Positions 300-15,541 of a stretch of DNA of 64,000 bases are shown here, piece by piece. Each line of letters opens with the position of its first letter. The stretch's first letter is position 1. The position numbers were made by a program, and so were the translations under genes. The stretch comes from Plasmodiophora brassicae (Eukaryota; Endomyxa; Phytomyxea; Plasmodiophorida; Plasmodiophoridae), in contig JASFAU010000001.1 of assembly GCA_039704465.1 (NCBI GenBank), positions 1,736,001-1,800,000 on the forward strand, in the 5' to 3' direction. The notes beneath the pieces are model-generated. The model was not told the origin of the DNA. It was given only the letters and a program-made list of their open reading frames with translations, and did not search any database.

Positions 300-3200
300 A
301 TGCTTCCTGAGCGCGCCGGCAATGGAACATCGGTGCCGGTCGCGATCGGGCCCAGCTCTGTTCAGGCCGACTCGGACGACGTTGAGCTGGACAGCTTCGG
401 GCTCGGCGTCGCAGCCTTCGCGTTAAAATCGATTCAGAGACGGCCGCTGCAGAGCCAACAGACGGCTAAGCTTGGGGGACGGTCGCCTCCCGTTTCGGCC
501 ACAACTTTAACAGCTCAGCATTCGCTGACAGATATCAGGAAGGTTGTATGTGCGTTGAATTTTCTCGATGAGATGGGAATATGGGATTTCCTGGCGACGT
601 TTGCACCTCCGTCTGAGCGAGCCACCGAAGTCGCATCGGCGCCCAGCCACAACGAGGCGAGCCCTCATCGACGGCACTGTCGAACCGCTTCAGCGCTCAG
701 TGCCGCTGGGAAGCTGATATCATCGTCAACACCGACGCCGATGGGCGCTGGATCGCCAGTACCCGCCAATTCTAATATGCTCTTCAAAGCGTTGTATCAG
801 GCTCGACTTTATGAGCGAGCACAACGCAGGAGGATTCGGAATGCCGACTTCTCATGCTTGGATTTGAAATCCGTGTTCACGCAGCAGTGGATGTCCAGCG
901 AAAAAGAAGCATGCAATGCCCAGTTTCGAATGTTCTTCGACAAATTCCAAACGTCTGTTCGAAACTCTTCAAATGCCAATCTGCTGGCGACGGTCTGTCA
1001 GGGAACTACGCCGAACCGAGATGAACAGCAGAAGTATCAGCGCATGTGCACCTTTCTGTTCCGGAGGCCAGATGCAATGATGCGCTCGTATGGTGCTGAT
1101 GTTTGCTTGTTGCTCTCCCAAACCGCGAACACCATCATGCTGATGCGTGACCTTGAAGTGCAACCGAATTCTGCAGTTGGGGAAGGGTTCCTCAACAAGA
1201 TTGACAACCTTCTGGCTGTCATGCTCTACAGAAGGCCGTCCCTGATGACGGGGAACCATCATCGTCGGAAGTCTCAGAAGCTCAATGCTTACGCTGGGAT
1301 TACCCTACCACACATCATCCCACATCCCGGCACTCGGCAACCACTGCCCACTCCTACCTCAATTTCAATCACGGCCACGATATATGTGTTAACTGTGGTC
1401 GTTGTTCTTGTCGCGTTGGCAGGCATTGGAGGGTTATCTTTCTCGTGTTCGGATGCATTCTTTAAATCTTTGCAAGGAACCTCGCAGGTTTCCACTAATG
1501 CTATGCAGAGGGTTGCTCGAGAAGCTGTGGCTGGTGCTATAATTGATCAGCAAATAGCAGCACAAACTACTTCTGCCTTGTTGGCTGGGTATGGCGACGC
1601 CCTGGCTGCATCGATGTTGACCAGTCAAGCGTCCACGTTTCCGAACGCTGCGCGAACCATGGCGTTCGAAGATGGAAGATACTTGTTTGCTGGAGACTCT
1701 GATTGGTCAACCGGCCAGGTTGCTGCACGTATGGATGGCACTGCTCTTTTGATGGGGTGTTTGCTTAACGCAACTAGTTCGGGACCGACGAGAGCAATTT
1801 GGTCCCCCTCCATTATTGCTGTAATACCCAACGGTCGTTCCGAAGCCAGTGAGTACGGCATATCAGTGGCGTCACCTTGGAAGAGTGTCCAAAACTATTC
1901 CAACGCGAGTCGCATGACTGGTTGCGTGCGTGTCGACGTTCCGCTGTCTCTCGTATCGTCCTCGCTTCTCGCAGCTAGCGACAACCGACGTACGGGCGAT
2001 GTTATGCTTATTCAGAGGTCGACCGGCGTTGTTCTGGCAGCAACGCAGCCACAGTGGACATCTGCTGCGCTACAAGGCTCGTTGATCTACAATTCGGACA
2101 CGATGAAGCTGGGCGAGTACACCCACGCCCCCGTTGTTTTCTCGCGTACTGCCATGGGGGACCTGGTAGGAAACCATTGTCGGGCGGACTGCTCAGTCTC
2201 ATGTCCTCCTACGTTTAGGTTTATGTTGCGCACGACCGGTCATCTATCAGTCAGGTCGCACCAGACTGGTACATCTATGGGCTATTCGCTGCAGGTGTGT
2301 TGTTCTGCGCCGTATTCGCTACGTCGGTCTATCGGGTTGTTTCGCAGAGAAACGCACCTCGCTGGGTACGGAGTAATCGATATAGGCGGTGGGCACTGGT
2401 CGGTCTCGTTTGTGCAACCATTCTGGTCTGGCTCACATGGACCGGCTACACTAGCTCCAGTGATGGCCGGCAAATCGACTTGGTCATGTTCACCATTGCG
2501 CAGGGCGTTGCTGGTACTGTTCAGACGATACTTCGCAAGCAGAAACAGGCGGCCTCGTTAATCCGCTCAGCGTCGTTCTCGCTGTCCAGCACGGTCAATG
2601 TTGACCACCTCTTGAACAATGTCGTTATGCCTGCGTGGGGATCCTGGGCAATTTCGTCTGTCTATTTCAGGTTGCCGGATCGGTCGGTGCGGGGCATGAC
2701 CGCAGACGGTTCTACGCTCGTTTCTGAGACGGGCACCTGCGTTGAAAAGCTGTCTGGATCAGCGGTCGTCGATGTTTTCTGCAACACTGTACTCGACCCA
2801 TTCAACAACGCCGTCTTGATGGATGGACGGCCTGGACTTACTTACCGGTCTCAACTACCTTCTTCGTCCAACGCTACCGATGTCACAATTGAAACGGACA
2901 TTGGCATCATTCAATCCGGTTTGACACAACTGGCGTCTATGACATCTGCGGATGCATCTGTGTTCATTCTTGAGCGAAATACGGCTTACGATGACGTACG
3001 GTACGGGTTGGTAGCCGCTTCGAACTCAAGTGAGGTGTTATCCGATGCGACGCAATCAAGTGACCCGCGGGTCCGAAGTCTTGCCACATTACTGGTCGCT
3101 AATCCTCGCTCGCTGCCAGCGAATGGAAATGGGGAAATTGCAAGGGATCAAACGCAGCCGATGACCTGGTGTTCGACACTCCAGGCCGCACGAAATGGAA

Positions 3201-6200
3201 ACGATTGGCTCGCTGTTGCGATGGTGCCCCGGATGACCCTTGTCGGAGATGTTGATGACGCGCATACCCGAACGCTGTCAGGCGTTGTCATTATCGTTAC
3301 GTTGCTCTTTTCCTTGAACTGGATTATTGGGAAGGCGTATTCTTGGCTGACTGACGCTCTTAACGTCGAACGCAAGCAAAGTCGCTCCCAGGTCAACCTG
3401 CTGCAGTCGATTCGACAAGCGAAACTCAACAAGCCGGGGAAGTTCACGCAGCTGGATGCTTTCAAGGTATGCTGTTATCTGCTTGCCTGGCAGGGTTCGC
3501 TTACTGATTCCTTGCTCAGACTGCAATAGAACCGATAATCCAGGATGCCCGATCGTCGTCGTGGCTTCGCGACGAGTCAGCGTCGCGTCACCGTTTGAAC
3601 CAACCGATTGACAGTACTGAGTTCCGTTACCATGCATGGAGCAGGGCCTGTCGCCATATTCAAGACAGTGAGTGTGTATGTAATCATGATCTGACGATTG
3701 GTGCGCTGATATCACTTCACTGTAGGCAACAATGGTCTAAATGTCCTTCACATCTGCCTTCTTGAGAACCATAGATCAGGGATGCCTCTGCGTATCTACC
3801 GTTTGATTCAAAATTCCATAGTCAAACAGGTACTGGCCATTGTTATTGTGTTCCACTTGGCGTTAACCTTTGCGAAACCGGTATCATCCGATGCCATGTT
3901 GACGCAAGGAGTCGCTCTATCTGTCCAGATAATTGAAGGTGTATGCTTGCTGTCCGAGTTTCTGTTCATCCTTGCACGATTGCTCACAAAGTATACCTGG
4001 GTTCGGGCCTGGCGATCAACAGCGGACCCTGTAATCAGGGAGTCTGCCCTGAAAGAAGCGCTTCCGACTCGTCTACAATTAGGAGACGTCATACTTGTTC
4101 TTATCTATTCCATTATCCTAATTGACTGGATCGTCATGGTCTCAAGCAATCGTAGCATTGAATATTTCTTTCCCCTGCGACCGCTGCTCTACCTATTTGT
4201 CAACAGCCAGTGCCAAGAGGGTTTGAAACTGTTCGCCCGAACCCTTATGGATGCCCTCAAAGTCTTTGTCCTTTATCTCTATGTGATCGTCGCTGTTTCA
4301 TGCCTGTTTCTTGTTCTTTTCCGTCTTGTAATTAATATTGACGTCCTCAGCTCAAGCTTCGACAACATTGTCCGGTCACTCACAGCCTGCTTTATATTTC
4401 TGACGGGAACGAATAATTTCAGCGAAGTGTTCTATCCCGCTACTGCAGTAGACCCGCTGTACGCTGTACTGTTCCTGTTCGTTTTCTTAGTCGGCAACCA
4501 TTTCGTTTGGGGCCTGACAATCGGTACGCTGACATCGTCGTTCGAACAACAGAAGCTCCGGCACCATTCGTACAAAAGCGTGTACTCGAGGTCGGGGATC
4601 CTGGCCGCTTTCATTCTGTTGGATTTCGACGAAGACAATCAACTGGCCGTTTCTGATGTCAGACACTTTCTGCAATTCGCCCGAACCGGACTGTCCGTCG
4701 AGCAGGCTGATGGGGTTATTGACGAAATACGTCAGCCGACGACGGGGTCCACCCCAGTGCGAAAATCAACGCTCACTACTGATCCAATGACGGGATCAAG
4801 AAACGGTGTCTCGCGAGGATCCGTCACTGTCCGTCCTGCGTCTGCCCCAACGTCTGCTGGTCGAACGTCAACCGTTGTCAATGTCTCTGTACCGCATCCA
4901 GAGCCAGCTGATATCCGGCAGAGTGACGTTTCTGCTCGGCAATCCGCTGTCCTAACTCCATCATTTGGTGCGACGAAACATGACATCGTGATGCACAGGG
5001 GCGGCAGTTTAACGCCAGGTGGATTGCTCGGGCCATCGGGCATTTCGCCGCCGTTTCGCAGGAGTGTCGTCGTCAACAAGCGGGACGCCGCAAATGCCAG
5101 CCCAGCCATTGAGCGGCTGCCACCCGTGGTTGGCTCTACCGTTAACCATCCTGCTCGAATGTCGCTGGCTACGGAACTTGGTCTGCCGAGAAGTTCAATG
5201 TCTGTCATCCCTGAAGCCGTTGCGCAGACCGTCCCCGACGTTCCACCTAACCTACTTGCCATGGCGCGCGGCCGCAGATCGCGGCCCAGCGTAGGTGGCA
5301 GTGTCGTTGGCAAGGTTGGTAAGTCCTCGGGTACAGGACTTCTTGATCCCAGTCCTCATGTCGAGCCTGGGTTGGACTACTTTAGTCTCGATGAATTCGT
5401 CAGATGCGTTGAGAAGGCGTTTCTTTTAGACGTCAAGCAGAGCAGTCCTGTTTCTCAACAATACGGGTGGCTTCTTGCGCTTCGGGTATTATTCTTCGAC
5501 ACTCAGGCCTACCATGACGTCGTGAAAGCGTTCACGATCCTTTTGATTAGTATCGTCTCACTGTACGGCGTGGTTGAACAACCTGCCATGGTTGACATGC
5601 TCTGCATTGCGATGCTTCTGTTCTCGGTTATCGAGGTATCGCTTAAAATTTGGGCGTACACTGCCGCCGTTTACTGGAACTACTCGTCTTATAACACGGG
5701 CCCAGATGTCGATGAAATTCAGTTTTCGCATCGAATTGAAGCGGCCGTTATTGCCATCTCGCTCGTTGGCACTTTCATATGTCAGTGCATGTCGGGCTTT
5801 ACGTTCACGTATGGCCAGCATCAGGATATCTTCCGGTTGTATCTGGTACTGCCCACTGTGCGAATCTTTACAAGTACAAAGTTTGCCCGTCATATGCTGT
5901 TCGTCTTCGTCCGGGTGATCCCTGAGTTCCGAGAACTTGTCATAATCTTGCTTCTTGTTATTTATGTATATGCCGTTATCGGAGTCCTCATCCTGCAAGG
6001 GCAGTTCGATCTGCTGCCTGCTGATGTTCGTCCGGCCATCGACTTTGACAATATGTTTCGCAGCGCACTGTCACTTCTGCAGATGTTGGTTAAGGACGTA
6101 CGTAAATTGGGTCACTGGTCACTGGGGGTCTTTGCCTAATGGGTCACTTTAGAACTGGCATACACTCATGTACGCAAGCATCATCGCTAAAGGATGGAAT

Positions 6201-6435
6201 GCAGCCTGGTTTTTCATTTCCTATATGATTATCGTCAATAACCTATTCACGTATGCTGCGATTGCCGTCGCGCTTGCTTTCCGATCCGCTCAACAGTGTT
6301 CTCCGCAGGGACCTAATGCTCAGTGTTATCATCGGCAAGTTCTCCATGGTCCTATACCACGCGTCTGCAACGCAGAGCGACGTCAAAACAGCGATTTTCC
6401 AGCAACGCCGACTGTCTTTGGTGACATCGTCATAG
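300..6435 (+). CDS. Sensor-fused two-pore cation channel, paralogue A
   Basis: Six exons (300-2165, 2219-3466, 3520-3667, 3726-6097, 6153-6250, 6309-6435) join in phase to 1952 aa. A cytosolic N-terminal region is followed by four hydrophobic segments (about residues 354-380, 638-662, 676-700, 972-993) that bracket two large extracytoplasmic domains. The end of the second, with WLAVAMVP, resembles Cache-type sensors. From residue about 1106 a complete two-pore channel follows: six-helix repeat I with pore filter GTNNFSEVFYP, an EF-hand loop starting DFDEDN, a long Ser/Pro/Arg-rich linker (about 1422-1635), and repeat II with DFDNM then NWHTLMYA across an intron. Two-pore channels conduct Na+ or Ca2+ across endolysosomal or vacuolar membranes; coupling to an extracytoplasmic ligand sensor is my inference. 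The start is the ATG at 300. Its third-position GC is visibly lower than in paralogue B. Confidence 0.85.
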
Positions 6436-7289
6436 ACCTACCTACCTACATAGGCTCACGTTAACTACCCGGTTATCTACCTGGTGTGTAAACGGTACTA
6501 CTATAGACCAGTAAAGAGTATACGATATGTAAAAACCGCTCGTTGGCCTGCTCGAGCCAGCCGTCTTCGTGACGCCTCTTCTACTGTTTCCTTGTTGTGC
6601 CTGCATTCTTGGTCTGGCTGCGACCGGTCGTGCAGTCCAATATCCCAGGCAACCCGCCTTCCTGAACGTCCATCCCTATACTCTAAGCTCATGGGGCGAA
6701 CGCCCCGATGTAATTACGCCTGTCACACCCGAAGCATCTCCTGCGGATCGTCAGGCTCGCGGACGGGATGGACTCAGTCGAACAAGCATACGCGCCTCCT
6801 GGCCATAACGATACCTGCTGTGTGGCGTGCTGCGATAATGTTTACCAGTGCGACTCACCGAAGCGCATAGCACGTGCCAATCCCGCGATCATCAACGATT
6901 CGAGTCAATCGCAGGTGACGTGCATTACCACCGTCTCCGTGAACTCGAGCGATACCCGCGTGAGGCATACCGGTTATTTCGTCGACCCTCCAGATACTGC
7001 GCCCACAATTCGTCCATCGCTCGTTGCAGCCTTCGAACTGGCTGGCGATGTTCGACATCGGGGTCGCGAAGCCCAGCTCCCTGTGTGTCTGTGTGACCAC
7101 CGACGTTGGCTCGAATCTCGACCGTCACTGACCTGGAGCAGCCTGCTTGCGGGGGAAGACGATCGTTATGGAGGCCAAAGCGACCACGACGTTTGCGTCT
7201 GATCCGCGCACGTCCTGCGTCCTCGTCCGAATCACGGGCGAATGCCCTGCCAGCTTGCGAACGACGCTGCCATTCTACTCCATATCGTC
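6436..7289. other. Gap between channel A and the protease gene; no gene assigned
   Basis: About 850 bases. It begins with a short CTAC-rich stretch (6437-6480). Several short open frames exist, including one from an ATG at 6768, but none shows a recognisable domain and none joins the protease reading frame by a convincing intron. The 5' exon of the protease and the promoter probably lie here. Confidence 0.4.
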
Positions 7290-9412
7290 TGCGCCAGTTG
7301 GGGATACCTGACACAATGTGCCCGGTTTGATACCAGTGTCGCCCAGGAGGACGGGCCGCACGACGATCAGCGTCAGCGGCATCGTGATCGGCGCGAACCG
7401 CTCCCAGATTCGAATCCTCTGCAACGCGTCGGCGTTGTCGCTGTTCAACAAGAACGATATCGGCATTGTGGCCGTCCTGCCCGGCCATCCCGACCCCGTC
7501 GATTGCCGGCTCGACGCCGTTGGTCGTGTCCGTCCACCCGCTCTGGACTGGCCGCCCGATTCAGCCTGACTGTCTCACCCGACAGGTCAGTTGTGTCGAT
7601 GACGCGTTTCGCGCCATCATGGAGCAGACGATCGGGTGGACCGTTGGCTGGCGGTACGCGTCGTCATCCAACGACGCCGTCAACAACCTGATGTCGCCGG
7701 CTGCGCTGGCCGTTGTCACTGCCGACGTTTCCCAACCAGCTGTACGGCTGCGTTATCGCAGGCAGGCGCGTGTGTGTGTTCAGTCGTCCCTGACGCGACC
7801 ATTGGCGGCAGGGCGTGCGCCCGGTGACGTTAGGGCGTTCGGGGGACCATGGACAGGACGTGTACGCGGTCAGTTCTCCGTTCGGGCTGTTCTGCCCAGC
7901 GGTAATGCAGAACGGCGTGTCGAAAGGTGTTGTCGGCAATACGATCCGCCCAGGGTGCCTGCAGACCATCGACGCCAGGTGCCTGCCGGGCTCAGAAGGT
8001 TGTTCCATGCGATCGCCTTACGACACGACAACCACCAACCGGGGATCGATCGCCAGGTGGCGGCGTGTTCTGCACCGACGGCAACCTGGTCGGCGTCGTC
8101 ACGATACCGTTGCGCCGAGCCGACCAGACGGATACGACCGCGGTCAACATGATGATGTCCGTCGAGGCGATCGCCGGGTTCCTGAGTCGGCACCGGTGCC
8201 TCCCGCCCATGACGCGCCCTGCCGCGGGCCGCCCCCGAAGCAACCTCACCGACCGACTTACCCTGTAACGCGACAGCAATGCTGGTCTGTGGCACAACTG
8301 ACGCGCGCTGTCAGGGCGACGAGGTCCGTTGTCCCGATCTGCCTCGACAGGTCCTGGGCATCGGCCGTCATCATCCACTCCGACGGGTGGACCCTTTGTA
8401 CCGCTGCTATGCATTTGCGAATAGGTGCTCATGCTTGCGGTCCTGTTAGGTACCTGGTGACGAACGCACACCTGTTGATTCCTAGCGGTGCCACAGAGCC
8501 CGGTCCCGTTCCCGGGCTACGTGTCCGGCTGGACGGATCCAATTTCCTGCATGGCAACAGTACGAGGCAGAACGAACCGGTTCCCTGCCCGGCCCACGTG
8601 TAACCGATTGGTCGTGCAGAGCAGGGCAGGCGGTGGGCCCAGGCATCCGTCGTGTACTGTTCATCGGGCCCCTGGGACCTCGCCCTGGTCCACATCGATC
8701 AGGTCGGGTCCAACTCGCATCCCGCGTGACGAGCGCGCGCGTGACGCTATGTGGACGTCAGGACGAGCTCGTCAGTGTATCAGAAGGCATCGGATGGAGC
8801 TTCGCCCCGCCTCGTCCAGGAACGTCTGTTGCTGCCGTCGGGCATGCCCTGTTCGACCCGTCCGTCGAGTGCACGCCGGCAGGGCCGTCGGTGTCGAGAG
8901 GGACGCTAGCGAAAGGTGTGCAGCCGGCGTCCGACGCCGGCCCGTTCGTGGGAATATTCACGCGCGTTCGTCAGTCGGCAGAATACGCGGCGGCGAACCT
9001 GTCCTGTTGCAAAGTTCGGCGCTGGTCCATCGAGGGAACTCGGGAGGCATGCTTCTCGACGTGGACGCCGGTCGGGCCATCGGTACGACACCCTCACGTA
9101 ACCGTGGCCTGAACGCTGCTGACAAACACATGGTGTAGGCGTCGTGTCCTGCAACATTCGACAGTCGTTGCCGGGTGGCGCGGACAGGGACTCGGCGACC
9201 ATCCCTAGCCTGAACTTCTCCATCCCGGCTCGCATCATTGCCGACCTGATTACATACATCCATGCCAGGTACGGCGCGCGTGCTATACGACCAGCGGAAC
9301 ACTGTGCCTATATGGTCGTCGCAGGGATGACCGGATACTAGCCGAGCTAAACAAGGACGACGAGGCCATCAGAAACCTCTGGCTGCTCAAGTCGCCTCAG
9401 GCGCGTTTGTGA
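7290..9412 (+). CDS. Peroxisomal processing protease, TYSND1/DEG15 type
   Basis: A multi-exon gene for a double trypsin-like (S1-fold) protein of the family that removes PTS2 leader peptides inside peroxisomes. The first, non-catalytic half carries SSPFGLF and ARCLPGSEGGGVF, the latter split by an intron (7999-8056). The second half has the full triad: His in TNAHLL, Asp in GPWDLALV and Ser in HRGNSGGM. It then ends with a LNFSIP segment typical of the family. A final intron restores a tail ending LLKSPQARL; ARL is an acceptable PTS1 peroxisome signal. Introns supported by phase include 8265-8314, 8388-8449, one after GRAIG near 9083 and one near 9270. The 5' end and one or two middle joins are unresolved, so the start is approximate. 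It sits between the two channel paralogues on the same strand. Confidence 0.8.
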
Positions 9413-9673
9413 CCGCCGAACCGGGTGCGATCACCGCCGACGTTACGATGATGATAAATCCACCGGGGCTGAGACGCGATCCGTTGTGCACTTCGCGACC
9501 CGGATTGGCATCAATCCCTTTGCCAGCTTCGATGAATGCGTCCTGCCGGCCACTTCCTATTGCACCTTCGATGGTACGGGGGACGCCCAGCGGTAATGTG
9601 AGGCGGGCACATTACACGCTGACGACCGTATAACGGGCAGGTCGATCGGTTGATCAGTACTACCCGTGATGCC

Positions 9674-12600
9674 ATGGGCGACGTCATCGACGACGGGTCG
9701 ACAAAGGTGTCTATAGGGCCGATTCGTCGAGAGCCATCGTTCCCCTGGGATGACGACCGGGACGCCCATCAGGGTGGCGGTACCGCGTCTGCCCACCTCC
9801 CCGATACGACTGAGGACAGCGACCTATTCTCGGAGGGCGGGTCGTCACGGTCGCTCGACGATGACCCGATGATCAACCAGGCCTGGCGCCTGGTCTGCGC
9901 CCTGGACCTGCTCAACGGCATCGGCATCGGCGCGTTCCTGACCGAGTACATGCCCCCGCGGGAGTCCGCTCGCCTCCACGAGATCCTGAGCGGCCACGCC
10001 CGAATCACCCAGCACCGGCGAACGCTTTCCGTGCCAGCAGCGGCAACGCCCTCACCACCAGCACCACCCGCCAGCCCGCCACAAGACGTCGCCGTCAGGA
10101 AACCGCACATCCACGGCGCCCTGCGCTCCATGTACAGATCGCGGTCGTCGACGGCCACGAACGCCAACGCGGTCGTCTACCAGCCGACGCTGGATATCGT
10201 GCTGCCCACGGGAGCGACTGTCTTGACGCTGCCGGGCGGTTCCGCCGGCGACGCGGACCCTGTAGCAGTCCATGCGACCTACGCGGTCAGTGCAGCGGCG
10301 AACCGTCGCTGGTCAGGTCGTCGCTGATGTGCTGACTCTTCCGCCCCCTCCGCAGGAGTGGAGCGCCGTCCAGATGGCAACATCCATGGAGCGGTTCCGC
10401 AAGTTCCTGTCGGTGTTCGCGCCCGACAACGACGACCACCGGGCGTCGTTGTCGGGTCTGTGCCAGACGGCGCAGCCGACGCACCGGGAGAAGGCGCGGT
10501 ACAGGGCGCTGTGCGAGTTCCTGTTCCGGCCGATGCATCTGCACGCGAAGCGGTACACGCACGAGGCGTGTGCCGCGATACAGCAGGCGGCGACGACGAT
10601 CGCCCTGCTGCGCGACGTCGAAGCCCAGCCGAACCTGTCCGCCTGCGAGGGGTTCCTCTACCTGATCGACAACGTCCTCGCCATGATGCTGTATCGCAGC
10701 GAGACGCGCATGACGAAGATGCCATCCCATCTCCGTCCGACGGTCCTGGACCGGTACGAAGGCCTGCCCCTGCCCGATGCCGATCGCAGGAGCCAGGACA
10801 TCATCGACGCCGAGAACGCCACCCTCGTCCGGGACCTTCGCGACAAGTACGGCCGGGTGGCCGCCACCATCGCCAGCCGCACGTTCACCACCCTCGTCGT
10901 CCTCGTCGGCGTTGTCGGCGTCGTCCTCCTCATCTGGCAATGCCATTCGTCGTTCGGCGCGGCCGTATCGGGTCCCCAGCGCGTCCTGCAGGCGACGTCC
11001 ATCGTGGTCGCACAGAACCGCATCAGCGCATTGACCGGCGACGCCGACACGCTCGCCAGGCTGGCCGCCAGTCGGTTCACGTCGCCGGACGCCCTCGCCG
11101 ACCAGCTGGAGCTGTTCCCCGACGTCTCCAGCCTGTTCGTCGTCGACAACGCCGGCTACGTGACCGCCGCCGCCGTTCGTAACGAGTCGGTCGTGACGCG
11201 CCCGCCCTGCACCGGCAGCGCATGGCCTTGCGGGCGTCTGATCGCCCCGTTTCCGTCGGCGGGAACCTTGTGGACCGCGATCGTGGACCTGCCGTTTGGC
11301 GGCAGGGGGTACGCGGTCGTCTCGCCCATCAACGCAACGCGGCGCGTCGGTGCGGGCGTCCCTCTGCAGGCCCTGTCCAGCAGCGTAGGCTCGTGCCCGA
11401 ACGTCGACGTCGTCGTGATGGACGACGCCGCTGTCGTTGCCAGCACGCTGCCGAGCGCGCTCCTGGGCGGCAACGGCACCGCCCCGCCTCCGTCCGCATC
11501 GCAGTCGTCGTCGTTCCGCGCGACATCGGGCCTGTCTCTGATGACGGCCTTCGCCATCGACGACTTCCCGGCCACGTACGGGAAGCGCATTGCGCTCCTG
11601 ACGATCGGCACCGGCGCGGTCTTCGTCGTGTTCTGCATCGCCACGGTCGTCTTCGCGGCGGGCCGGTGGCGCGCCGGCCGCGGCTCCGACGACGACGGCT
11701 CCGGCGACGCCGCCGCCGCCGCCGCCACTGTCGCGTTCGTCGTGCTGGTTCTGGTCCCCGCCGTCGTCTGGGTCGCGTGGATGGAGGCGCTCGGGGCGAT
11801 CGGCGGCGTCGAGCGCGACCGTGTCGTGGAGTCGGTGGCGTGGCAGGCGGCGACCGACGTCGCTGGCCTGCTGCAGGCCTCGAAGACCGTCGTGGCGGAG
11901 GCGGCGCGTGCGGCCGACGCGACGGCGATGGCCTCGGTCGCATCGCTGTGGACGCGGTCGTCGGCGTTTCCGTCGGCGATCTACGTGACGCGCCCCGATG
12001 GGTTCATGTCCGGCATCAGGGTGGCCGGCCAGGAGACGCTGACCATCGAGCGGAGCCCAGGAGCGTCGTCGTGCTACACGGAGAGGAACGCGTCGGGTGG
12101 CGTCGTCGTCATCGATTGCGGGTACAAGGTGGCGCGCGCGTCGTCGACCAGGACAGCGTACCTGCCGACCGGATCGGGCGCCGTCTACGTGACGTCGCTG
12201 GCGTATGGCAACGGGAGCGTCTCCGTCGAGTTCGGGTCGGATGTGATCGTCGCCAGGCTGCGGTCCCTGATGGGGCGTGTGTCGCCGAACGCGGTCGGCA
12301 TTGTACTGGAGGACACCGGGTCGGGCCTGCGTCTGGTCGCGTCGACCACGTCGGACGGGACGGCGCCGACCGCGGACGCGACCGCCACGTCGACGGAAAC
12401 GATCATTCGGCACCTCGCCATGTTCCTCCTGCAAGCTAACGCCAACATTGCCTCGGTGACGACATCGGTCTCCAGCGTCCAGCGCGACACGTTGAAACCG
12501 CTGACCTGGGCCGTCCGCCTGGCCGATGCGGCCAACGGCAACGACTGGATCGTGGCCGCTCTCGTCCCCGTTTCCGACCTATCCGGCGCCACCGACCAGC

Positions 12601-15079
12601 GCCACACCCTGACGCTCGTCATTGCCGTCTTCACCGTCGTCCTCATGCTCGTGCTCGACTGGGCCGGTCGGCGGTCGGCCGCCGGGGTGACAGCGACGAC
12701 GACGACGGGGAAGCGGCCGACGAGCGGCCCTGGGTCGATGCTGACCATCATGACGTCGATCCGACATCGGCGCAGCGGCCAGAAACGGGTCAAGTACAGG
12801 ACGGCGTCGGACCTGAAGGTCGCGATCCAGACGACGATCCAGGAGGCGCGTGCCGCCGACTGGGAGTACCAGCAGCAGGTCCTGAGGCAGGTCGACCACC
12901 CGATCAGCAGTCAGCTCTTCCGGCGCCACGCCTGGGATCGCGCCCGACGCCACATCGTCGACGGTACGAGGGCCGAACGCGAAAACGTTCGCCGCCACTG
13001 ACGATGGGGAGGGGGGCATCACAGGTGCCGCTGGGCTCAACGTTCCCCACATCTGCCTGCTGGAGAAGTTGCCGACCCGGGTCCCGCTTCGCGTCTACCG
13101 CCTGATCCAGAGGCCCGTCGTCAAATGGGCCCTGACCGTCACGATCACGGTCCACATCTGCCTGTCGTTCGCGAAGCCGGCCACGCTGGGCGACCTGCTG
13201 GCCGGCGGCGCCACCACCTCGGTCGTCGTCGCCGAGGCCGTCTGCCTCGTGATCGAGGCGCTGTTCATCGGCGCCCGCCTCGCCACGAAGTACATCGCGG
13301 TTCGCAGCGTGCGCCTGCAGGCCGACCTGAAGTGGGACGACCATCGCACGATCCAGGTCAAGGACATCGGCCTGATCGTCGTCTTCGCCGTCGTCGTCGT
13401 CGACTGGATCGCGATCGTCGCCGGCAACGTCAGCATCGAGTACTACGTCCCGTGCCGCCCGTTCCTGTACGTCCTGTCGAACGCGGGCACGCGCGAGAGC
13501 GTCCGCCTGTTCGCCCGCACCGTCTACGACACGCTCGACGCGTCGCTCCTGTACCTGCTGATGGTCGTCGTCTGCGGGTGCATCAGCCTGGCCGTGTTCC
13601 GGGCCGACGTCAACGCCGACCAGCTCAACTCGAGCTTCACGAACGTCGTCCGCGCCATCTCGTCCTGCTTCGTCGTCATGTCGACCGCCGAGAACTATCA
13701 CGAGATGCAGTACCCGGCCGTGAACGCGTTCAACGTCGTCTGGATCGCGTTCATGGTCGGCGCCGGCATGTTCATCATCCTCGGCATCGTCATCGGCACG
13801 TTCCAGGCCGCGTTCGAGCGGCAGCGCGCCGCCGTCGACATCCACAAGCGCGTGCTGGCGCGCGCCGGCATGGTCGCCGCCTTCGTCCTCCTCGACTACG
13901 ACGAGGACGGCCACATGTCCATGGGCGATTTCCACCATTTCCTTCGGTTCATGCGCCCGGCGATCGCCTCCGAGGACGTCGACGCCGCCGTCGGCGACCT
14001 CGACAAGAAGTCGTCGCTGTCGAACGAGGCCGGCAGCGGGCGCCCGCCGAAGCGCTTCGTCGACGTCGACGGGTTCATATCGGGGGCGGAACGCGTGCTC
14101 GCGTCCACCATCGTCCAGCAGCCGGTGCGAAGCGCTTGGCGCGCCAACGCCCGCGGCCTGTTCTTCGAGAACCCGTTCTACCTGCACGTCTGGCGCCTGC
14201 TGACGATCGGCCTGATCGGGGTCGTCGCCCTGTACGGCGTGTCCGACGAGGCGACGACTCGCAACCTGGACCGGACCTGCCTGGCGTTCGTCGTCGTGTC
14301 GGCGCTGGAGATGCTCGTCAAGGTGGCCGTCTACGCGCCGTCCCAGTTCTGGAACTATTCCCGGTACAACATCGGGCGGTGGGCGGCCGAGATCCAATTC
14401 GCCAACCGGTACGACACCATCGTCGTCGGGGCAGCGTTCATCGGCAGCCTGGCCGGGCAGGCCATGACCGGGTTCCGGTTCCACTACACCGACAACGAGA
14501 ACAACGAGCGGTTCTACGCCGTCCTGCCCGTCGTCCGGATCGTGACGCAGACGGTGGCAACCCGACACCTGATCTTCGGCACGTTCCGGGTCGTACCGGT
14601 GATCAAGGACCTCGTTGTGCTGCTGCTCCTCGTCATGTACATCTATGCGATGGTCGGCGTGCAGATGCTGGCGCACAGGTTCGAGCGGATGCTCGTCGGC
14701 GCGGTGCCACCGTCCAACTTCGACAACCTGGCGAACGCGTTCCTGGGCCTGACGCAACTGCTCGTCAGCGATGTAAGCACAGGAGCCAACTACCGCGCCT
14801 GGTGCTGAGAGCGGCACACGCTGACCGATCGTGTAGAACTGGCACGCGACGATGTATGCAGCGATCCAGGTCACGTCGTGGAACATCGCCTTGTACTTCA
14901 TGTCGTACATGATCATCGTCTACATCCTGCTATCGTATGGGACGTCGGGAGATTGCAATCAGCCACATAGGTTGACAGGGGCGCGCGCGTGTCTGTGCAG
15001 GAACCTGGCGTCCGGTGTGATCACCACGGTGGCTCTCAAGTACACTCGTGGAGATGCCCATGCGAAGACAGCCGATTAG
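9674..15079 (+). CDS. Sensor-fused two-pore cation channel, paralogue B
   Basis: Five exons (9674-10285, 10356-12963, 13025-14772, 14837-14934, 15001-15079) join in phase to 1714 aa. The layout matches paralogue A. A cytosolic region is followed by membrane segments at about 379-398, 619-639, 661-682 and 958-975 around two extracytoplasmic Cache-like domains; the second ends with WIVAALVPVSDLSG. The two-pore channel starts near residue 1092, with filter I STAENYHEMQYP, an EF-hand loop DYDEDGHMSMGD (about 1362-1374) and repeat II with PSNFDNL then NWHATMYA. The linker between the repeats is short, unlike in A. The intron inside the second pore and the one after the last helix occupy the same places as in A, confirming common origin. 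The ATG at 9674 has a good context (gccATGg). The gene is strongly GC-rich at third codon positions, which creates long antisense open frames. Confidence 0.88.
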
Positions 15080-15306: not shown

Positions 15307-15541
15307 GATTGTCATCGGCCCGTGGACTTTCCGGAAGGACAATCTGAAGGGGATGTTGATGGATCAGGGCCTCTTGGGATTATGTGACATAATCCCTGAC
15401 AGTAACGTCGCCGTAGAGTGGACCACAAAGTCGACATCCTCGACGTCCAGGCCTTCAACCGCCTCCGCCTCAAAGAGGCCCTGATCCATCAACATCCCCT
15501 TCAGATTGTCCTTCCGGAAAGTCCACGGGCCGATGACAATC
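15307..15541. repeat. 69-bp perfect inverted repeat with a palindromic junction
   Basis: Bases 15307-15375 are the exact reverse complement of 15473-15541. Both encode the same transposase segment, including VIGPWTFRKDNLKGML. Just inside the left arm lies a 21-bp palindrome at 15376-15396 (9-bp arms, TGA centre). This is a fold-back structure at the inversion breakpoint and looks like a template-switch scar. Confidence 0.9.

Follow-up and report, generated by a model that had tools for sequence, protein, structure and literature searches.

The window analysed here, a stretch of 64,000 nucleotides from Plasmodiophora brassicae (contig JASFAU010000001.1, positions 1,736,001 to 1,800,000), contains two genes, g1 and g2, in which a membrane-bound module with two loops is joined in one frame to a two-repeat cation channel. 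Together with a third gene elsewhere in the genome, g3, they suggest that P. brassicae possesses a three-member family of sensor-fused two-pore channels (TPCs), each predicted to comprise a cytosolic N-terminus, a four-segment module with two Cache-like domains, a linker and a TPC-type channel. We assign this reading a probability of about 0.6.

Gene g1 (300..6437; exons 300-2165, 2219-3466, 3520-3667, 3726-6097, 6153-6250 and 6309-6437) encodes a fused protein of 1952 amino acids and g2 (9674..15079; exons 9674-10285, 10356-12963, 13025-14772, 14837-14934 and 15001-15079) one of 1714; both genes, with all their features given below, lie on the + strand. The models were rebuilt independently from the window DNA and reproduce exactly the exon sums of an earlier, preliminary description of this DNA. 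All introns are of the GT..AG type and 53-70 nucleotides long. Three of them match between the genes in place and phase: the intron at the module-channel join (phase 1; 12964-13024 in g2, corresponding to 3668-3725 in g1), one before NWH (phase 0) and one within the final membrane segment (phase 2). The agreement of intron phases stated in the preliminary description holds for these three, the join included, but not for two introns of g1 and one of g2.

Among the candidates scored in the protein database, the only public match to g1 is a 1952-residue record, P0001, annotated as 'Ion transport domain-containing protein [Plasmodiophora brassicae]'. It has the same exon reading and is identical to the spliced translation of g1 at 1932 of 1952 residues (99%), the remaining 20 being different, and probably stems from another strain than the window DNA. 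RNA reads were among the inputs to the gene models of the P. brassicae genome, according to the available part of PMC4471660. With g2 as query, nothing was retrieved among the matches listed, g2 itself included; either its record is missing or the word filter overlooked it. Two of the protein searches, one with g1 and one with g2, were limited to 8000 candidates each, and another search with g1 scored 86.

Besides g1 and g2 themselves, a search of the window's own assembly (25.3 Mb, 21 contigs) with the g2 channel found the third gene, g3, at locus L019 on contig C10. The corresponding search with the g2 module matched only g1 and g2 and missed the diverged module of g3. An uninterrupted frame of 1037 amino acids covers g3 from loop 1, of which it includes the larger part, to the filter of repeat I, taking in membrane segments 2-4, loop 2 and the linker. 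Frames downstream contain two EF-hands above the Pfam cut-off and the second repeat; g3 is read here as separate frames with a partial N-terminus. The four pre-channel segments and the loop lengths agree with those of g1 and g2. A module profile combining g1 and g2 scores 21.7 bits against the pre-channel part of g3, compared with a maximum of 4.2 in 500 shuffles, and matches three frames of the locus (E 8e-7 to 6e-4). Two parts carry the 21.7-bit signal, the region preceding segment 1 and the linker ahead of S1; the loops have diverged too far to contribute. Independently, TBLASTN aligns the N-terminal stretch of g3 with g1 at 38% identity (E 1.4e-5), and the loops of g3 share 15-22% of their residues with those of g1 and g2 (alignments A5 and A6). 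The long MAFFT alignments A1, A3 and A4 are excluded from all identity figures because g3 is misplaced in them. Judged by these likenesses, g1, g2 and g3 are paralogues, g3 being the more distant copy, and the fusion most likely predates their split, that is, it was present in their common ancestor.

The order of parts in g1 and g2 is N-terminal region, membrane segment, loop, two membrane segments, loop, membrane segment, linker and two-repeat channel. One single BLASTP alignment runs over the join, from loop 2 through the linker into repeat I (residues 768-1444 of g1 and 744-1412 of g2; 34% identity, E 8e-105; provisional C-terminal ends lying outside 300..15079 were used). The linker, located at 3335..3793 in g1 (with introns 3467-3519 and 3668-3725 inside) and at 12669..13108 in g2 (with intron 12964-13024 inside), aligns across all three paralogues. 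Between g1 and g2 it is identical at 43 of 115 positions, a degree of conservation similar to that of the channel repeats (101/251 and 108/274), and the loops fall below it (47/224 and 72/250). Since the join of g3 lies in one uninterrupted frame, the fusion does not depend on splice prediction, and most of the doubt about the transcripts is answered by this frame together with the agreeing record P0001. As read from the DNA, module and channel form one polypeptide in each gene and the fusion is real; the preliminary description was right to hold that these are not two neighbouring genes.

The four extra membrane segments of g1 and g2 are evident from hydropathy, calculated with thresholds of 1.6 for g1 and 1.5 for g2. 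In g1, segment 1 spans 1377..1439 (residues 360-380; hydropathy 2.62), segments 2 and 3 together with the short, basic turn that separates them 2270..2449 (2.06 and 1.73), and segment 4 3272..3334 (residues 974-994; 2.16). The corresponding segments of g2 are found at 10878..10940 (residues 379-399; 2.53), 11592..11771 (segments 2 and 3; 2.44 and 2.64) and 12606..12668 (residues 955-975; 2.47). Two further weak peaks of g2, one at 73-91 (1.51) and one at 556-574 within loop 1 (1.61), are taken as non-membrane. A position of both loops on the non-cytosolic side, as expected in the preliminary description, is supported by hydropathy and by the distribution of N-glycosylation motifs: across the three paralogues, 14 motifs occur in 1524 residues outside and 4 in 1279 residues inside, the N-terminus of g3 being partial. 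The turn that links segment 2 to segment 3 contains 31% K/R and no acidic residue in g1, and 17% K/R with 22% D/E in g2. Because it is basic in g1 and not in g2, charge alone leaves the topology unsettled.

All six loops of the three proteins are framed by two membrane segments and measure 217-278 residues, which fits the 200-300 residues or so expected for dCache_1. The loops were compared by HHalign with a dCache_1 profile of 36 out of 51 bacterial sequences, and 88 segments from the same genome served as decoys. Single-loop scores range from 11.5 to 24.1. In g1, loop 1 (1440..2269, residues 381-639, 259 amino acids, with intron 2166-2218 inside) reaches 19.1, a score attained by 1 of the 88 decoys, and loop 2 (2450..3271, residues 700-973, 274 amino acids) reaches 12.8, with 14 decoys as high. 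Loop 1 of g2 (10941..11591, residues 400-616, 217 amino acids) scores 14.8 and loop 2 (11772..12605, residues 677-954, 278 amino acids) 14.6, each equalled by 6 of the 88; the match of the latter is located at the C-terminal strand DWIVAALVPVSDL. In g3, loop 2 lies above all 88 decoys and loop 1 is equalled by 28.

What speaks most for a Cache identity is the position of the match. All six loops align collinearly with dCache_1, with an offset of at most 0.07 of the length, compared with 18-20% of the 88 decoys on the diagonal (offset within 0.1 of the length). With control profiles, none of the six loops falls on the diagonal for CHASE and two do for SBP_bac_3. This result is no clean probability, since the six loops are related to each other. 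Loop profiles including the membrane segments give 26.4 over 205 columns for loop 1 and 16.7 for loop 2, where the maxima of 40 column shuffles are 14.4 and 12.7, respectively. With three-sequence profiles lacking the membrane segments, loop 1 scores 15.3, above 100 of 100 column shuffles, and loop 2 scores 12.6, above 99 of 100.

Several results weigh against this identification and the reading built on it. The HHalign probabilities are 0.1-8%, all of them below 10%, and the single scores of loop 2 of g1 and loop 1 of g3 are ordinary among the decoys. The outcome of the control profiles is sensitive to the limit of 0.1, with one CHASE and one SBP_bac_3 value at 0.11. Pfam reveals no Cache domain in any loop at E up to 5, a listing limited by the HMMER filters, which discard most matches above about E 0.1, and the gathering score of PF02743 is not attained; dCache_1 likewise matches nothing genome-wide at E<=1. 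Moreover, among the matches listed in the protein database, g1 and g2 have no relative outside P. brassicae, although orthologues at 30-40% identity could escape such a search. A PDB search with the g2 module matched nothing, and a pattern scan for prokaryotic relatives of loop 2 confirmed none of 44 candidate stretches. The sole PDB match in another loop search, 2n28_A (an 81-residue chain, E 0.35), lies at a membrane segment and was taken as chance. Weighing both sides, the chance that the loops adopt a Cache/PAS-type fold is about two in three. The Cache-like identity proposed in the preliminary description is favoured by the relative profile evidence, which prefers dCache_1 to CHASE and SBP_bac_3, but it finds no backing in the absolute probabilities or in Pfam.

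The fusion may be real and the loops nevertheless be no ligand sensors, forming instead an extracytoplasmic scaffold particular to this lineage that helps to assemble, traffic or regulate the channel, in the manner of the alpha2delta subunits of calcium channels. Such a role would suit the weak conservation of the loops, weaker than in any other part of the proteins both between g1 and g2 and towards g3, as well as their escape from Pfam and their low HHalign probabilities. It accounts less well for loop lengths and membrane bracketing that are kept in three paralogues and for dCache_1 matches that are collinear in every loop, and we consider it unlikely.

The channel part of g1 (3794..6437) contains Ion_trans cores at 4085-4558 and 5534-6088, and that of g2 (13109..15079) at 13363-13824 and 14248-14769. 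Pfam detects Ion_trans with E 1.9e-15 in g1 and 7.4e-18 in g2, in two stretches each and with a whole-protein score above the cut-off, and the genome-wide Ion_trans search likewise marks two places in each gene. Compared with the PDB, the channel exon of g1 yields 15 matches at E <=0.01, of which 14 are TPC1, 2 or 3 (best E 2.8e-4). For the g2 channel two matches were obtained, the better of them TPC3 (E 1e-7). On this evidence the channel of g1 and g2 is nearest to TPCs, as the preliminary description had proposed. EF-hands are clear only in g3, where two exceed the Pfam cut-off; the matches in g1 (4598-4729, best E 0.042) and g2 (13876-14013, best E 0.017) remain below it, but EF-type loops can be recognized by eye. 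Modulation of the channel by Ca2+ is plausible from these motifs. The pore motifs are GTNNF and KDNWH in g1, TAENY and SDNWH in g2, and TEDNY and QDWH in g3; the acidic residue of the second filter may influence a Ca2+ preference.

Searched alone against the PDB at E 0.1, repeat I of g3 retrieves no TPC and only CatSper3 (E 0.0094 and 0.016), and because of this the filing of g3 as a TPC rests on its likeness to g1 and g2 and on its layout. This match, the low identity to TPCs and second filters that differ from the SNNWY of L023, a TPC-like gene of the same genome, could also indicate a different two-repeat branch of the voltage-gated cation channels that gained the module separately. The presence of two repeats with an EF-hand-type linker and the predominance of TPCs among the PDB matches of g1 and g2 make such an origin quite improbable. 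An annotation error, by which an adjacent receptor gene and channel gene were joined wrongly, might be suspected from the short introns at the joins of g1 and g2 and from gene models that rest on DNA alone, but it was dropped as exceedingly improbable in view of the uninterrupted join of g3, next to the unbroken g1-g2 alignment, the conserved place and phase of the join intron and the same model in P0001.

The sensor-fused TPCs coexist with TPC-like genes that have no detectable module, since the g1-g2 module profile found no module in L023 and L025 and detected that of g3 in the same run. The best PDB match of both is a TPC (E 9e-13 and 1e-11, respectively), followed by many matches to Cav, Nav and bacterial sodium channels; the pore motifs of L023 are TTENF and SNNWY. 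The highest score of the profile was 5.5 bits (E 0.05), for a frame of 64 residues downstream in L025, and a strongly diverged module could escape it. Upstream of the TPC-like gene, at positions 1-2454 of L023, frames resemble by eye the reverse transcriptase/RNase H coding sequence of a retroelement.

TPCs work as dimers, and research treats them as channels of organelles whose gating depends on lipid, nicotinic acid adenine dinucleotide phosphate (NAADP), Ca2+ and voltage. Further traits of the kind are an endolysosomal or vacuolar location and regulation by PI(3,5)P2. In a sensor-fused TPC, two chains per pore would present four loops. On binding a small molecule or an ion, the loops could shift segments 2 and 4, much as happens in bacterial Cache receptors; the linker, conserved and running straight into S1, would pass the movement on to repeat I and thereby open the cation pore. 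The EF-hands between the repeats could provide Ca2+ feedback. In this scheme we infer binding, coupling, gating and cellular location, and only the anatomy is read from the genes. The loops may face either the cell exterior or the lumen of an organelle. According to the available text of PMC8490419, animal and plant TPCs are located in acidic organelles. A receptor-channel class absent from the papers searched, a homodimeric TPC gated by four Cache-type sensors, two per chain, which reads a small molecule in the surroundings of the cell or in an acidic organelle and so combines sensing and Ca2+ signalling in one protein, is our tentative proposal, at somewhat less than even odds.

Known TPCs begin with a short cytosolic tail. 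In the fused proteins, in contrast, S1 is preceded by about 1100 amino acids that include four membrane segments and the two loops outside the cytoplasm. Otherwise plant TPC1 and animal TPC1-3 resemble g1 and g2 in their two six-segment Ion_trans repeats, provide the best matches of solved structure and, in the plant type, contain an EF-hand linker. The TPC of Toxoplasma gondii is likewise a protist TPC with an extended N-terminus (1,502 amino acids) and divergent filters; it is reported to lack EF-hands, and no extra membrane segments or N-terminal sensor are described in the accessible portion of PMC8490419.

Cache domains and channels have been found together in other contexts. Bacterial Cys-loop ligand-gated channels with an N-terminal Cache and MCP-N domain likewise unite Cache and pore in one chain, but they are pentameric and prokaryotic, and the available part of PMC549065 reports no double membrane-bracketed module for them. 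In animal alpha2delta subunits an extracellular Cache domain also acts on a cation channel, but as a separate subunit, as far as PMC549065 and PMC4822843 are available; g1 and g2 differ in having a pore, and no VWA or alpha2delta-type family is found in them at Pfam E 5. Eukaryotic Cache cases are mostly alpha2delta subunits in animals and histidine kinases in plants and fungi, besides one Naegleria cyclase, according to the accessible text of PMC4822843. In the same text, the Cache-adenylate cyclase of Naegleria and the yeast kinase Sln1 are rare eukaryotic membrane sensors of this type as well, with an enzyme and not a pore as output. A literature search by title and start of abstract found no Cache-TPC fusion among the matches listed, subscription papers being mostly outside its scope. 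The fused proteins would extend the known kind of two-pore channel, the identity of the sensor being likely but unproven.

If the sensor reading is true, the TPCs would gain a ligand-gated branch with a luminal or extracellular sensor of its own, and with it a natural system in which to study the control of a TPC pore by an extracytoplasmic domain. With regard to clubroot, g1, g2 and g3 would be candidate proteins by which an obligate plant parasite may read its surroundings.

Across the genome as a whole (G000), 47 Ion_trans matches are observed, 45 of them above the cut-off, and eight are clustered at C2:853540-857724 like a single multi-repeat channel. Downstream of g3, a frame at 8160-8903 of its locus contains the stretch RPDGHCLYH, which by eye looks OTU-protease-like. 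Between g1 and g2, at 6440-9670 of the window, overlapping frames contain stretches that look by eye like trypsin-like serine proteases; TBLASTN with g1, g2 and a part of g3 gave nothing at E 0.001 in this interval. Just behind g2 lies a perfect inverted repeat of 69 nucleotides (15307-15375 and 15473-15541, 97 nucleotides apart), possibly a small mobile element.

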